Assembly: GCA_016125215.1 (NCBI GenBank)
Contig: WGMF01000011.1
Span: forward strand, 1-64,000
From: Phycisphaera sp.
Lineage (GTDB): Bacteria; Planctomycetota; Phycisphaerae; Phycisphaerales; Phycisphaeraceae
Length of the DNA: 64,000 nt
Direction of reading: 5' to 3'
The notes under the pieces are model-generated. The model made no database searches. It was given only the letters and a program-made list of their open reading frames with translations, and was not told the origin of the DNA. Made by a program: the position numbers and the translations under genes. Positions 8,436-17,063 of the stretch are shown one piece after another. Positions within the stretch are counted from its first letter, which is position 1. The number at the start of each line of letters is the position of its first letter.

Positions 8436-8536
8436 TCGCCAAATGTCCGGTTTGTGCTTCCAGCAAGGTAGGGTGTGTCAAGGATCGCCGGGTGCTACTG
8501 GCGGCTTGCCCGCCGGTGCATGAAACATACGGATGA
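8432..8536 (+). CDS. Short zinc-ribbon-like ORF, probably truncated by a repeat
   Basis: A GTG overlaps the methyltransferase stop (GTGA). The frame reads IAKCPVCASSKVGCVKDRR and stops after 34 residues. The CxxC start looks like the first half of a zinc ribbon, but the reading frame then runs into the dispersed palindromic repeat that begins near 8466. It may be the remnant of a third gene of the restriction-modification unit. Evidence is thin. Confidence 0.35.
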   Translation: MIAKCPVCASSKVGCVKDRRVLLAACPPVHETYG

Positions 8537-8626: not shown

Positions 8627-8845
8627 TTACGCCGCGGGGATTTCAAGGGTGTCGATTTCGACCGTGGGTTGGGGGATGGCTAAACCGTCGGCTGCGAGGC
8701 CTTCGAGGTGGAAGGCGATGGCTTCGCGCAGGAGTTGGCGGACTTCCTGGGTGGACGATCCGGTGACGCCGACGCCGGGGAGGTCGGGGGCGTAGGCGCC
8801 GTAGGTGCCTTCCTCTGTTTTCTCGATGATGATGGCGTACTTCAT
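8627..8845 (-). CDS. hicB: HicB family antitoxin
   Basis: The 72-residue product (MKYAIIIEKTEEGTYGAYAP, then DLPGVGVTGSS and AIAFHLEGL) is a typical HicB partial RNase-H-like fold that neutralises the HicA mRNA interferase. The start is the ATG at 8845, overlapping the stop of the upstream hicA by two bases. An in-frame upstream ATG would add 52 residues taken from the hicA region in a wrong frame and is rejected. The partner toxin is broken by a nonsense codon, so hicB may now be a solitary antitoxin. Confidence 0.88.
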   Translation of the reverse strand: MKYAIIIEKTEEGTYGAYAPDLPGVGVTGSSTQEVRQLLREAIAFHLEGLAADGLAIPQPTVEIDTLEIPAA

Positions 8846-9048
8846 GTCAGGTCGTCCTTGGATAGTCCCGCTTGGCGAAGGATGTTGCGTAGCGTGCCGG
8901 GCGGGACGGTATCGTTGGGTTTGCCCGCGATGGTTACACGGCCGGGCCGACTGGGGTGTTTGAATTGCCGGTGACTGCCGCGTTAAGCCACCTGTGTCCA
9001 ACCATGTGATTCAATCAATCGGACTACATCCCGGTACTTCGGAGCCAT
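8842..9048 (-). pseudogene. hicA: hicA toxin gene with an in-frame stop codon
   Basis: Reading from ATG 9048 gives MAPKYRDVVRLIESHGWTQV, then Ala, then a TAA at 8985-8983, and then RGSHRQFKHPSRPGRVTIAG and a normal HicA ending (PGTLRNILRQAGL). Apart from that codon the frame is intact for 68 residues, the usual HicA length, and it still carries the catalytic His in the GSHRQF motif. A single base change would restore it. The lesion removes the part with the active histidine, so the toxin should be inactive unless the stop is read through. Confidence 0.85.
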
Positions 9049-9067
9049 GCGAATCATGATACGCACC

Positions 9068-9189: not shown

Positions 9190-9441
9190 TCACGCGGCGC
9201 CGGTGTGGCGTGTGGGTTCGTCCATGGGGAGCAGGTGGTGGAAGACGGTGACACCGGTGCGTTGCATTTCGCGGAGGTAGGGCTTGCACAGGCCGCAGTG
9301 TTGGCCGGCTCCGCATTGGGAGGCGACGGTGTCGGTGTCGGTCTGTCTGCTGATCGCTTCGTCGCGCAGCGAGGTGAAGGTGCGTTGGGTACAGACGCAT
9401 CGGTCAACGCGGATCGGACTGGGTTGCGGTTGTTGATTCAT
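9190..9441 (-). CDS. Small BFD-like [2Fe-2S] protein
   Basis: The 83-residue protein has the spacing of bacterioferritin-associated ferredoxin domains. Cys15-x-Cys17 (DRCVCTQRTF) is followed by Cys49-x2-Cys52 (HCGLCKPYLREMQRTGVTVF), and the CxxCxPYL and TGxTxF signature is clear. There is an extra Cys at 43. Such proteins bind a [2Fe-2S] cluster and may help iron release or electron transfer. No bacterioferritin gene is nearby. Overlapping longer ORFs in other frames lack any family signature. Confidence 0.75.
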   Translation of the reverse strand: MNQQPQPSPIRVDRCVCTQRTFTSLRDEAISRQTDTDTVASQCGAGQHCGLCKPYLREMQRTGVTVFHHLLPMDEPTRHTGAA

Positions 9442-9471: not shown

Positions 9472-9870
9472 TTAATTCAACGTGACCCACTTCATGTCGC
9501 CGTTGCGTTTGACGAGGAGGAACGCGGTCTGGTTGGGTCCTGAGTTGGCGTTTCGGTCGAAGACCGCGCGGTAGACATCGGGCCCGAAGCGATCCACCGA
9601 GACCAGTTTGGATTCGGGCCGTGACGCAAGATCGAGCAGCGCCCGGGTGATGGCCTGGGCCAACTCCGGTTTGAGGCCCTCGTCGAGTTGGGTTTTTGTC
9701 AACTCGGCTCGCTGATCGGGTGCGGATTCTCGGAGGCGTTGCAGATTCGCTTCGACCTGTCGGGCTTCGGGGCTGTCGAGGCCGAGGTCGCGGTAGGCGT
9801 ATTTCTTCTCACACCCGAGCGGTGCAAGGCACACGCAAGTCAGGGCAAGCATGGTGACGAGTGTGCGCAT
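9472..9870 (-). CDS. Small lipoprotein of unknown function
   Basis: The product has 132 residues. ATG 9870 gives a signal peptide with a lipobox ending LAPLGC (Cys20), so it is probably lipid-anchored. The mature part (SPEARQVEANLQRLRES, then VFDRNANSGPNQTAFLLVKR) resembles no family I can name. The start is two bases from the stop codon of the pseudopilin gene upstream, so it is the third gene of an operon that begins with the PEP-CTERM gene below the cobalamin riboswitch-like leader. Confidence 0.7.
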   Translation of the reverse strand: MRTLVTMLALTCVCLAPLGCEKKYAYRDLGLDSPEARQVEANLQRLRESAPDQRAELTKTQLDEGLKPELAQAITRALLDLASRPESKLVSVDRFGPDVYRAVFDRNANSGPNQTAFLLVKRNGDMKWVTLN

Positions 9871-9871
9871 C

Positions 9872-10678
9872 TTACTGGTCGTAGTGTGGCACATTGTTAG
9901 CCCCGACAAACCCGAGGTTCTGTTCGGGTTGCGTGATTGATCCGTCTTCGATGCCGAAGGCTTGCGCGTGGCCGTCCGCGGTGAGGGCCTGCGTTGAGCC
10001 GTGGTGTCGGAAGTGTGTGGTGGGCGTGTTGTTGGGGCCGAAGCCGGTGGTCACGGGGTCGAGCGAGGTGCTGTTCTGGAAGACCCAGATGGAAGAGGGT
10101 TTCCAATACATGGCTGCGTCGACGAAGACGAAAAGCTGGGTGGGGCTTTTGATATCGTCGACGCGCTTGCGTGGCATGAGTTGGCCGGCCGCGTCGAATC
10201 GGAACCAGAAGACGGGGTCGAGACACCAGCCGTTGTAGCCATAGGTCGTGGTCTGCTCGGCGGCGACGCCCTGGGGGACATAGGTGCCAAAGGGGAGCAT
10301 CGGGCACCAGAGCACGCGGCGGTCGTTGTTGGCGTAACGCAGGAGCCAGTTGTCGACGGAGGAGACCGGCGAGGTGTTGGTGCCCCAGAAGTAGCTCAGC
10401 ACGCCGGTCGTGGGGTAGTTGGTTCGGCGGGCATCGGGGAAGAAGCCGGCGTTGTCCGATTGGTAGTTGCTCACCGCTTGACCGAGGGCGTGGAGGTTGG
10501 ACATGCAGACGACGCCCCTGGCCGAGTCCCGGCTGGAGGCCAGGCTTGGCAGGGTGATGCCCACGAGCAGGCTGATGATCGTCACCACCACGAGCAGTTC
10601 GACCAGGGTAAACGCCGTGGGGGGTGATGGCCGACGCCCTCTCTCCTCCTGGGTGAGATCGGACGTGTGCGTGGTCAT
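9872..10678 (-). CDS. Prepilin-like (type II secretion pseudopilin family) protein
   Basis: The 268-residue protein has the prepilin cleavage/methylation motif AFTLVELLVVVTIISLLVGI after a polar leader, followed by a large C-terminal domain with GHAQAFGIEDGS near the end. This layout fits the planctomycete DUF1559/H-X9-DG group of pseudopilins. ATG 10678 (MTTHTSDLTQ) is chosen; the frame is open further but the extra residues are proline-rich and unlike a leader. It lies between the PEP-CTERM gene and a lipoprotein on the same strand. Confidence 0.8.
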   Translation of the reverse strand: MTTHTSDLTQEERGRRPSPPTAFTLVELLVVVTIISLLVGITLPSLASSRDSARGVVCMSNLHALGQAVSNYQSDNAGFFPDARRTNYPTTGVLSYFWGTNTSPVSSVDNWLLRYANNDRRVLWCPMLPFGTYVPQGVAAEQTTTYGYNGWCLDPVFWFRFDAAGQLMPRKRVDDIKSPTQLFVFVDAAMYWKPSSIWVFQNSTSLDPVTTGFGPNNTPTTHFRHHGSTQALTADGHAQAFGIEDGSITQPEQNLGFVGANNVPHYDQ

Positions 10679-10783: not shown

Positions 10784-11443
10784 TTAGTTCAACCCGATCC
10801 GCGGTCGTTGCCACGATCGTCCGAGCATCGCCAGGCTGAGCAGGCAGATACCCGCCGTGGCCGGTTCGGGGACGAGCGGAACGGTCGGGGGGTTATGTGG
10901 GGTGAAGTCAAAGCCGGTCTGCCCGGTGTTTTCGAGAGACCAGCCGTCCCAATCGCCGTCGGTAAGGTTGCGACCGTCCACGCCATAGTCATACGGCGAG
11001 GTCCACGCCATGCCGTCGGTGCTGTTCCAGTAGCCGGTGTAGTTGCTGTTGGGGTCGCCAAAGTAGCCTGACTCGGCAATTGAGTCGGACCCGTCGGTCA
11101 GACCGTTGATCAGGTGTGCTAGTAACGGGTACGGGAAGTACGTCGAGGTCACGTCGAGTGAGCCAGCCACATCGATGGCGTCGAGCATATCCCAGCTTGT
11201 CGCGCTGCCGTCCCACTTGTAGCCGTAGGCTTTGGAGACGCTCCCGAAGTCCACGACCACGACGGCCTGATTGGAGCCGCTGCCCGCCCAGTATTCCAGC
11301 TCGATGGTTTTGCCATCGAACACCACGGCGGCGGCCTGCGCGCTGGGCAGGTTTGCCAGACCTATCACCATGAACAGACAGACCGCCACGCCGAGTTGCC
11401 CGAGCTTGCGGGCTCCTGTGAATCGAATCTCCGTTGCCAACAT
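10784..11443 (-). CDS. PEP-CTERM sorting domain protein
   Basis: The 219-residue exported protein has a signal peptide (LGVAVCLFMVIGLANLPSAQA) and a C-terminal VPEPATAG motif, followed by the hydrophobic ICLLSLAMLG and an Arg-rich end. This is the tripartite PEP-CTERM signal processed by exosortase. The middle (YGYKWDGSATSWDMLDAIDV, then GYFGDPNSNYTGYWNS) is a domain I have seen described only as hypothetical. An AAGGAG seven bases before ATG 11443 fixes the start. It is the first gene after a cobalamin riboswitch-like leader, so B12 may control it. No exosortase is in the window. Confidence 0.82.
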   Translation of the reverse strand: MLATEIRFTGARKLGQLGVAVCLFMVIGLANLPSAQAAAVVFDGKTIELEYWAGSGSNQAVVVVDFGSVSKAYGYKWDGSATSWDMLDAIDVAGSLDVTSTYFPYPLLAHLINGLTDGSDSIAESGYFGDPNSNYTGYWNSTDGMAWTSPYDYGVDGRNLTDGDWDGWSLENTGQTGFDFTPHNPPTVPLVPEPATAGICLLSLAMLGRSWQRPRIGLN

Positions 11444-11540
11444 GACCGACTCCTTTTCCGCCCTGAATCGCGCAGGGCCAAGCCCCCAAATGAACAGACA
11501 GTTCTGTCCTTTGCGAGGGGTCGATGACGTCGGGGTTGAG

Positions 11541-11828
11541 CCTGCCTGGGGGTGTGGCAAACCACCGCGGTGTCCCACTCGCGAGGACACGGTGTTCAAC
11601 AGGCAGGTCTTCCGGCTTAGGGCGTTGGGCCGACCCCCTTCCCGGCTTCACTCGTTGCAAGTGAGCCAGTGGTGTTGGGTCAGCCGTGGGGTGAGTGGTC
11701 GTGCGGGGTGGGATGGATCACGGTCGTGTGATCCGGGTCCGATCCGTACGTCCATCGCTCCAGCCCGTCACGGCGGCGCGTCCGCGGGAGATTGCCCCAT
11801 GTCCGTGAGTGATCCCTTGTGGTGACGT
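11541..11828 (-). ncRNA. Cobalamin riboswitch-like leader
   Basis: On the minus strand the RNA contains, 5' to 3', CACAAGGGATCACTCACGG, GGGGCAATCTCCCGCGGAC, GCGCCGCCGTGACGGG, CCACTGGCTC, GCCGGGAAGGGGG and AAGCCGGAAGACCTGCCTG (11600-11618). These match the order of conserved elements of the AdoCbl riboswitch, above all the GAAGACCTGCC end. Downstream, CAGGCAGG at 11541-11548 is complementary to CCTGCCTG of the aptamer, so alternative pairing could form the expression switch. A second hairpin lies at about 11560-11595. The first gene controlled would be the PEP-CTERM gene at 11443. Recognition is by eye and not by a covariance model. Confidence 0.78.
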
Positions 11829-12034
11829 GAGTTGTTTTTACAAACAACGGCTCATTCACACCGGGAAAAACTTCCGGGGGGGGGTGCTCCACTTCCCTTT
11901 TCACCCGGTCGGCGGTCGGCTACACACCGCTCGCAGACCGGGCACCATGTTGAGACAACCACCCTATCGCGGAAGCCCCGGCGCCGCAAGGCCGGGTTAT
12001 GAGATTTTCATGTCTTTTATTGACGCGGCCTTTT

Positions 12035-12187
12035 CTTAGAAGGCGTGTGAGAAGCTTGGGTGTGCCACGGGCGGCTTGCCCGCCAGTGCTTAAAACGTAC
12101 GGCTTTTTCACTGGCGGACAAGCCGACAGCGGCACCCCAATACACACCCTCGTGATTTCAGCCTGGCTTCTCACACACTTTCTTGCA
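12035..12187. mobile_element. MITE-like palindromic element, copy 1
   Basis: The element is about 150 bases with imperfect terminal inverted repeats (CTTAGAAGGCGTGTGAGAAG at the left; CTTCTCACACACTTTCTTG at the right). Its centre is a long hairpin based on GGCGGCTTGCCCGCCAGTGC and its complement. The copy at 16910-17063 is almost the same sequence in the opposite orientation. There is no coding capacity. Confidence 0.8.
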
Positions 12188-12265
12188 GGCCCCGCTTCAG
12201 GCCGGCTACGCATCGACCGATGGGTGAGTGGAGGCCCTGTCAATCCGTCGTTATCGGGTGGAGAA

Positions 12266-12733
12266 ATGGCTCAAACACGCGCGTTTACGCTTGTTGAACT
12301 TATCATTGTCATCACCGTGCTGGGGATCCTCGGGGCGCTGGTGATCCCGATGTTTGCCCGTGGGGACACGCAGGCGATGACCGCCGCGACCCAGTCGAAC
12401 CTGCGTGCCATCAACCAGCAGGCGGTCATGTACCAGGCGGACCACGGCTCGATGCCCGACGCCATCGACCCGGCATGGTTCCCCAACAACAAGGTCCCTG
12501 CCAATCCCTTCGACTCAAGCCACCCCCACAACGTGCAGAACCTCGACAGCGCGATCACCGACCCGACCTATAAAGTCATCCACCGCTACTCCAGCGGCCA
12601 CCACGGCTGGTGGTATAACACTCGATTAGGTGTCCTCCGCGCCCGCCCCGACGACGTCGGCTCATACGAAGCCACACTTCAGACCTACAACGCCATCAAC
12701 GGCACGGACCAGACCGACCTGGGGAAGTATTGA
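12266..12733 (+). CDS. Prepilin-like (type II secretion pseudopilin family) protein
   Basis: The 155-residue product starts MAQTRAFTLVELIIVITVLG, a very short leader with a prepilin cleavage site and the conserved +5 Glu, then LGALVIPMFARGDTQAM. A GGTGGAG lies six bases before the ATG. The C-terminal part (NFxx-like NNKVPANPFDSSH, then GWWYNTRLGVLRAR) is like GspG/GspH-type pseudopilins with a trimmed globular domain. It is a single gene next to repeats. No secretion ATPase or assembly gene is in the window. Confidence 0.82.
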   Translation: MAQTRAFTLVELIIVITVLGILGALVIPMFARGDTQAMTAATQSNLRAINQQAVMYQADHGSMPDAIDPAWFPNNKVPANPFDSSHPHNVQNLDSAITDPTYKVIHRYSSGHHGWWYNTRLGVLRARPDDVGSYEATLQTYNAINGTDQTDLGKY

Positions 12734-16909: not shown

Positions 16910-17063
16910 CTAAGAAAGTGTGTGAGAAGCCAGGCTGAAATCACGAGGGTGTGTATCTGGGTGCCACTGGCGGCTTGTCCGCCAGTGAAAAAGCCGTACA
17001 TTTCAAGCACTGGCGGACAAGCCGCCAGTGGCACACCCAGGCTTCTCACACGCTTTCTAAGAA
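16910..17063. mobile_element. MITE-like palindromic element, copy 2 (inverted)
   Basis: The sequence between AAGAAAGTGTGTGAGAAGCC and GGCTTCTCACACGCTTTCTA is the reverse complement of copy 1 at 12035-12187 with only scattered differences. The core hairpin pairs CACTGGCGGCTTGTCCGCCA with its complement around AAAAAGCCGTACATTTCAAG. It sits between convergent genes and may also terminate both. Confidence 0.82.

Follow-up and report, generated by a model that had tools for sequence, protein, structure and literature searches.

A divergent cobalamin riboswitch ahead of a PEP-CTERM/pseudopilin operon in a Phycisphaera genome, and its probable role in surface capture of vitamin B12

Is a minus-strand leader that resembles a cobalamin riboswitch genuine when it stands ahead of genes for surface proteins, and what would such genes do under its control? 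The question is raised by a locus in a 64,000-nucleotide stretch of Phycisphaera sp. DNA (contig WGMF01000011.1, positions 1 to 64,000 of the forward strand), called the window here. A preliminary description had proposed an AdoCbl riboswitch with a downstream switching sequence, followed by an exosortase-sorted protein, a pseudopilin and a lipoprotein that could be B12-related surface components. The features of the locus are as follows.

11593-11956, minus strand: cobalamin (AdoCbl-type) riboswitch aptamer (clade covariance model, sub-threshold RF00174, conserved boxes)
11768-11785, minus strand: order-specific L5 box GCGGACGCGCCGCCGTGA, 18 nt, exact match
11600-11607 and 11541-11548, minus strand: CCTGCCTG and the complementary CAGGCAGG, a possible anti-P1 helix
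11570-11590, minus strand: P13-like hairpin GTGTCC-TCGCGAGT-GGGACAC, with CTCGCG conserved in the loop
11450-11478, minus strand: hairpin GCCCTG-CAGGGC and Shine-Dalgarno-like AAAAGGAG, from sequence, ahead of the start codon at 11443
10784-11443, minus strand: gene 1, secreted PEP-CTERM protein of 219 aa, CL3 family (PF07589; family comparison)
10919-11284, minus strand: predicted transcobalamin beta-domain-like (beta-grasp, SLBB) domain of gene 1, residues 54-175 (AlphaFold2 and structure alignment)
10805-10873, minus strand: PEP-CTERM sorting tail of gene 1, residues 191-213 (PF07589)
9872-10678, minus strand: gene 2, pseudopilin of 268 aa with a C-terminal H-X9-DG-like motif (TIGR02532)
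9472-9870, minus strand: gene 3, small lipoprotein of 132 aa (HMM and neighbourhood)
9190-9441, minus strand: gene 4, BFD-like [2Fe-2S] protein of 83 aa with four cysteines, CxC...CxxC (PF04324, alignment)

The leader was searched with the Rfam model RF00174, which aligned over model positions 1-189 to 11591-11959 (-) at 18.2 bits (E = 0.024, 701 nt searched), and an Rfam scan of the whole window returned no cobalamin riboswitch at the gathering cut-off of 31.5 bits, which is an empirical threshold and no structural feature. The preliminary description had let the riboswitch stand or fall with this covariance search, and on its own terms the outcome would have been a refutation. A clade covariance model (R1), built from 17 relatives with the window sequence left out, matched the leader over its full length at 11593-11956 (-) with 94.7 bits (E = 2.5e-35), and no second match was found in the 4.04-Mb genome (next best, 12.4 bits). 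Within the 17 relatives, 96% of the cells of the R1 structure were paired and 17 pairs carried double changes, a number attained in 0 of 500 shuffles; the window copy showed few non-standard pairs against this structure, the core boxes in order (R1 full-length match, boxes compared by eye), and the terminal box AGCCGGAAGACCTGCC. Since the clade-model match is strong, unique in the genome and backed by covarying structure, the minus-strand cobalamin riboswitch that immediately precedes the PEP-CTERM gene is real, and the ordered boxes claimed at the outset are borne out; the sub-threshold RF00174 score alone would have wrongly dismissed a true riboswitch. The range first assigned to the locus, 10784-11828, contains the aptamer except for its 5' third, which falls outside.

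The RF00174 score lies below the cut-off because of two long insertions in the window copy, where the distance from GGGAAG to the L5 box is 106 nt (median 36) and that from the L5 box to the aptamer end is 184 nt (median 134). Chance resemblance with no riboswitch behind it, to which the missing gathering-score match might point, is vanishingly improbable, already refuted by the E-value from an independent model and by the uniqueness of the match in 4 Mb. A copy that decayed in this genome and lost its ligand response would fit the gap between 18.2 and 31.5 bits and insertions some 70 and 50 nt above the median, but is distinctly unlikely, as the conserved boxes are intact, the clade model scores highly, and the insertions fall in length-variable regions, with some relatives having long ones too. 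Within its known riboswitch family, the window RNA is a new and divergent member. Two sub-threshold RF00174 matches elsewhere in the genome (C33 and C45, one of them within a rhomboid-like reading frame) had no backing from the clade model and were rejected, and weak matches in the leader to RF02790, RF03128 and other Rfam families were judged to be due to chance.

Downstream of the core, the CTCGCG of the P13-like hairpin recurs within 75 nt in 79 of 120 riboswitch loci (15 in the reversed control), and its CGCG could pair with the CGCG of L5, by analogy with the known L5-L13 kissing loop. The complementary sequence proposed earlier as the switch is present: CCTGCCTG and CAGGCAGG pair in the minimum-free-energy fold, and their complementarity has a probability of p = 0.01 by chance in the window sequence. 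As a conserved switch, however, this anti-P1 helix was rejected, comparably strong pairing (p <= 0.05) being found at only 8 of 120 riboswitch loci, about the chance level. Under free folding, the predicted pairing of the Shine-Dalgarno region was identical with and without the anti-P1 helix, terminator and promoter scans of the leader found neither element, and folding together with the terminator scan gave no clear expression platform in the leader.

Further elements flank the operon. A second pseudopilin-like gene (11999-12733, plus strand) runs divergently, directly upstream of the riboswitch operon. A 152-nt element at 12033-12184 and 16912-17063, in inverted orientation and 93% complementary, contains palindromic parts (GTGCCAC..GGCGGCTTGCCCGCCAGTG); one copy lies shortly before the riboswitch, and partial copies occur at 8492 and 9070. 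At 8627-9057 (-), a HicB-like frame lies beside a HicA-like frame with one in-frame stop codon, and the HicA/HicB pair of this region is probably broken.

The PEP-CTERM gene, pseudopilin and lipoprotein are as described earlier, and a fourth gene, for the small BFD-like protein, was added after the lipoprotein. Gene 1 matched PF07589 at 21.1 bits (cut-off 20.7) in a genome with exosortases scoring 168, 166 and 150 bits, so that it has both marks of a PEP-CTERM surface protein, the C-terminal motif and a host exosortase. Gene 2 was matched by TIGR02532 (17.5 bits, cut-off 16.3) and by a GspG-like profile (E = 1.7e-10), and by Pfam N_methyl slightly under the cut-off of that model; its predicted structure has a pilin-type long helix (residues 25-75) and retrieved only pilins with Foldseek, weakly, and the prepilin-type N-terminal motif and long N-terminal helix together mark it as a type IV pilin or pseudopilin. 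Counterparts of gene 3 occupy the same position in ZRK34 (L194), in Lentisphaerae (L230) and in two other genomes of the order. Gene 4 has the CxC and CxxC pairs and matched PF04324 (Fer2_BFD) with E = 0.0045 and 17.8 bits, below the cut-off of 26. No TonB-dependent receptor was found in the window operon.

The preliminary description had suggested a search for the same gene set after B12 riboswitches in other planctomycetes, and the set recurs across the order. An above-threshold cobalamin riboswitch was detected in 38 of 41 genomes (own and relatives), usually exactly one. Of 151 genomes from the order, 144 contain the L5 box when a single mismatch is tolerated, a count that is supportive only, since the reversed control pattern also occurs by chance in a minority of genomes. 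The order-wide set comprised 121 riboswitch loci from 113 genomes, with downstream frames classed by iterated HMMs and gene counts restricted to the 110 loci whose sequence extended for 3.5 kb or more. A pseudopilin follows at 103 of these 110 loci, a secreted BtuH-like family at 85, a BFD-like gene at 48, a beta-propeller family at 22, DUF4465 at 6 and a TonB receptor at 6, two of the latter counted twice owing to tandem riboswitches. In control windows on the same strand, 5.7-11.2 kb downstream, a pseudopilin was present in 5 of 30 and the other families in 0 or 1.

Profiles of the accompanying secreted families lead to cobalamin binders. The common secreted family matched Bacteroides BtuGH (8blw, E = 2.1e-28) and BtuH2 (7biz, E = 1.8e-22), BtuH being a proven B12 binder (PMC8941943), and a PDB sequence search with the beta-propeller profile gave no convincing match. 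DUF4465, carried by sister operons, was matched by Pfam with E = 3.9e-55. We take IPR013424 to be a PEP-CTERM signature. It is carried by 88 of 824 DUF4465 family members (PMC12751083), and high-affinity binding of B12 is documented for members of DUF4465 (PMC13398666, PMC12751083). In one genome (locus L047), a riboswitch of the same class is followed by frames that resemble an adenosyltransferase, BtuF and ABC components (named by eye), and the FecCD permease there was also found in the search for that domain. Two order-type riboswitches lie close together at L110 (G063) and at L111 (G066), the first followed by a pseudopilin and the second by a TonB-dependent receptor.

The AlphaFold2 model of gene 1 (60 members) is of moderate confidence, with pLDDT 75.6 and pTM 0.64, and includes a helix at residues 83-92 followed by strands at 97-101 and 111-116, where pLDDT is 56-76; this is the place at which members of the transcobalamin-like SLBB clade have a beta-hairpin inserted behind the helix. 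Foldseek ranked 3u7z and animal cobalamin carriers at the top (E 0.008 to 0.3), and VIA-align superposed model residues 54-175 on the beta-domains of intrinsic factor, haptocorrin and transcobalamin and on 3u7z with Z 10-11.2 and rmsd 2.2-2.7 A over about 100 residues, the next unrelated fold reaching Z 5.9. On the predicted model, gene 1 thus has the beta-grasp fold of the transcobalamin C-terminal domain. The fold search was blind to B12, and fold and riboswitch are therefore independent pointers; the shared fold, itself a prediction, is alone no proof of cobalamin binding by gene 1. The transcobalamin beta-domain has been placed in the SLBB superfamily, in a clade with listed planctomycete members whose extracellular representatives were predicted to scavenge B12 (Burroughs et al. 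2007, PMC1796856).

CL3, the family of gene 1, has 16 members in the order-wide set after removal of two spurious HMM matches (L060, L102), which had fallen on the repeat-like C-terminal region of other proteins. Besides PEP-CTERM, no Pfam domain was found in CL3, the 60 members gave no transcobalamin-clade Pfam match, a result of no weight at this divergence, and a PDB sequence search with the CL3 profile gave no convincing match. A subset-alignment scan of 84,980 species genomes yielded 80 CL3 loci, in Bacteroidota, Verrucomicrobiota, Planctomycetota, Armatimonadota, Desulfobacterota and others. An Rfam scan of 58 of these loci detected a cobalamin riboswitch in the same-strand upstream sequence of 47 (46 RF00174, one AdoCbl-II), distributed as 11/14 in Bacteroidota, 12/14 in Verrucomicrobiota and kin, 13/15 in Planctomycetota and 11/15 in others. 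ZRK34 (Planctomycetales, complete genome) and a Lentisphaerae genome repeat the window order of riboswitch, CL3, pseudopilin and lipoprotein, and an Empedobacter locus runs riboswitch, TonB receptor, BtuG-like DUF5074, BtuH-like protein and CL3-DUF5074-T9SS tail. At L244 3959-4046, an AdoCbl-II riboswitch (RF01689, in place of RF00174) precedes a CL3 gene. In Desulfobacterota, c-di-GMP-I riboswitches lie beside family genes at L186 6398-6814 and L188 1-59, that of L186 directly ahead of the cobalamin riboswitch, in tandem.

The earlier suggestion that these surface proteins are B12-related has strong comparative support, since the same gene set follows the riboswitch order-wide, sister operons encode DUF4465 and BtuH-domain proteins of proven B12-binding families, and CL3 is riboswitch-linked across phyla with a predicted fold like the cobalamin-binding beta-domain of transcobalamin. 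We put the probability at about 0.75 that the window operon is a B12-repressed surface capture system for cobalamin, a figure that excludes any pseudopilus step; in this capture reading we infer binding by gene 1 and by the RNA, sorting, and transport. Matrix formation and attachment are the usual context of PEP-CTERM proteins and pseudopilins, and the operon might accordingly be read as a surface or adhesion programme that is merely B12-responsive, for example in settling on B12-producing partners, with no role in acquisition. This is unlikely, given that the variable first genes repeatedly belong to B12-binding-type families (BtuH, DUF4465, transcobalamin-like) and that the same families stand beside btuB in Bacteroidota.

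The demand for such a system was gauged by searches of 51 genomes of the window's family. CbiC, taken as the marker of de novo B12 synthesis, was found in 0 of 51, B12-dependent methionine synthase (MetH domain) in 47, PduO adenosyltransferase in 46 and FecCD permease in 50. A TonB plug is present in 21 of the 51 genomes and absent from 30, and among the 33 of best quality it is present in 12, leaving 21 without a TonB receptor. Methionine synthase and PduO are both encoded in the window's genome, as are a BtuC-like permease and, next to it, a BtuF-like protein, assigned on scores that fall short of the NCBIfam cut-offs; this genome also encodes two TonB plug proteins, the better of which is heme-receptor-like (237 bits, against 109 bits for BtuB).

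At about 1.36 kDa, B12 exceeds the size that ordinary porins admit, and to our knowledge BtuB is the only well-established outer-membrane route for it. Outside Bacteroidota, 44 of 57 CL3 loci have a pseudopilin and none a same-strand TonB receptor; the 23 Bacteroidota loci have no pseudopilin and 13 have a TonB receptor, so that pseudopilin and BtuB-type receptor never co-occur among the 80 loci (44 versus 13). This mutual exclusion is suggestive, the flanks being limited and phylogeny a confounder. Gene 2 shares 54% identity with the riboswitch-linked pseudopilin of ZRK34 and 49% with that of Lentisphaerae, and the 4-Mb window genome (G000) has some 50 pseudopilin-like paralogues, whose likeness to gene 2 is mainly N-terminal (best 62 bits). 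In planctomycetes, dextran has been reported to attach to pili-like fibres and to build up in the periplasm (PMC5394234), and by analogy fibre-linked uptake in these bacteria is at least plausible.

The capture reading can be laid out as a cycle. At low cellular adenosylcobalamin, the leader would permit operon expression, in keeping with the OFF-type response known for riboswitches of this class; the product of gene 1 would be exported, would stay attached to the surface through its PEP-CTERM tail, and would bind cobalamin through its predicted transcobalamin-like beta-domain. The general pilin/type II machinery would build the gene 2 product into a pseudopilus which may, at clearly less than even odds, carry or pass the vitamin over the outer membrane in place of BtuB. 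The BtuF-like and BtuC-like proteins, whose genes were found elsewhere, would then serve inner-membrane passage, and the PduO-type enzyme, whose gene was also found, would adenosylate the cobalamin, with AdoCbl shutting the switch again. The wider proposal, that in several phyla a dedicated pseudopilin, coexpressed under the riboswitch with transcobalamin-like and BtuH-like surface proteins, moves cobalamin over the outer membrane in place of BtuB, is tentative and less likely than not. Capture might instead involve a pseudopilin that serves only for display or anchoring of the binding protein, or assists its export, B12 crossing the outer membrane through another porin or receptor. This has only slightly less than an even chance: pseudopilins are secretion parts in known systems, with numerous paralogues in this genome, and the two TonB plug proteins could point to another entry, but no gene follows the riboswitch more constantly than the pseudopilin, which is missing where btuB is present, and many high-quality genomes of the window's family have no TonB receptor, as counted above.

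If true, the pseudopilus route would represent a new kind of B12 uptake. For a B12-dependent family without de novo synthesis and often without a TonB receptor, one riboswitch operon offers a candidate alternative route; a likely function emerges for CL3, an unannotated protein family of many phyla, with a fold link to vertebrate B12 carriers, and a possible role is suggested for some of the very numerous planctomycete pseudopilins. Searches of titles and abstracts in the open-access literature returned no paper linking a cobalamin riboswitch with PEP-CTERM, with planctomycetes or, in this sense, with pseudopilins, and nothing on such a system linking PEP-CTERM with vitamin B12.

Set against known systems, the window RNA shares with RF00174 (Cbl-I, AdoCbl type) the ordered core boxes, matching helices, the CCACTG...GGGAAGG module, the terminal AGCCGGAAGACCTGCC box and a P13-like hairpin downstream; it differs in the order-specific L5 box GCGGACGCGCCGCCG, the long insertions and sub-threshold score, and in preceding PEP-CTERM and pseudopilin genes in place of classic B12 genes. 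Gene 2 resembles the GspG/ComGC pseudopilins of type II secretion and competence in its prepilin N-terminus and single long helix, and is unlike them in its large C-terminal domain with the H-X9-DG-like motif and in its link to a B12 riboswitch. With the transcobalamin-like SLBB clade, gene 1 has in common the predicted beta-grasp domain, secretion, and hosts without B12 synthesis, whereas it has no alpha/alpha toroid partner domain and is not recognised by Pfam; the tie of CL3 to cobalamin riboswitches and pseudopilins was not found mentioned in the description of that clade (PMC1796856). The Bacteroides B12 loci (BtuB, BtuG, BtuH, BtuJ/DUF4465) likewise place a set of surface B12-binding proteins under a cobalamin riboswitch, have the BtuH-domain and DUF4465 families in common with the sister operons, and are joined to CL3 by the Empedobacter locus. 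They have lipoprotein or T9SS anchors where the operons described here have PEP-CTERM or dockerin-like tails, and BtuB where these operons have a pseudopilin; the window operon contains no ABC genes. Among B12 capture systems, this operon represents a new variant.
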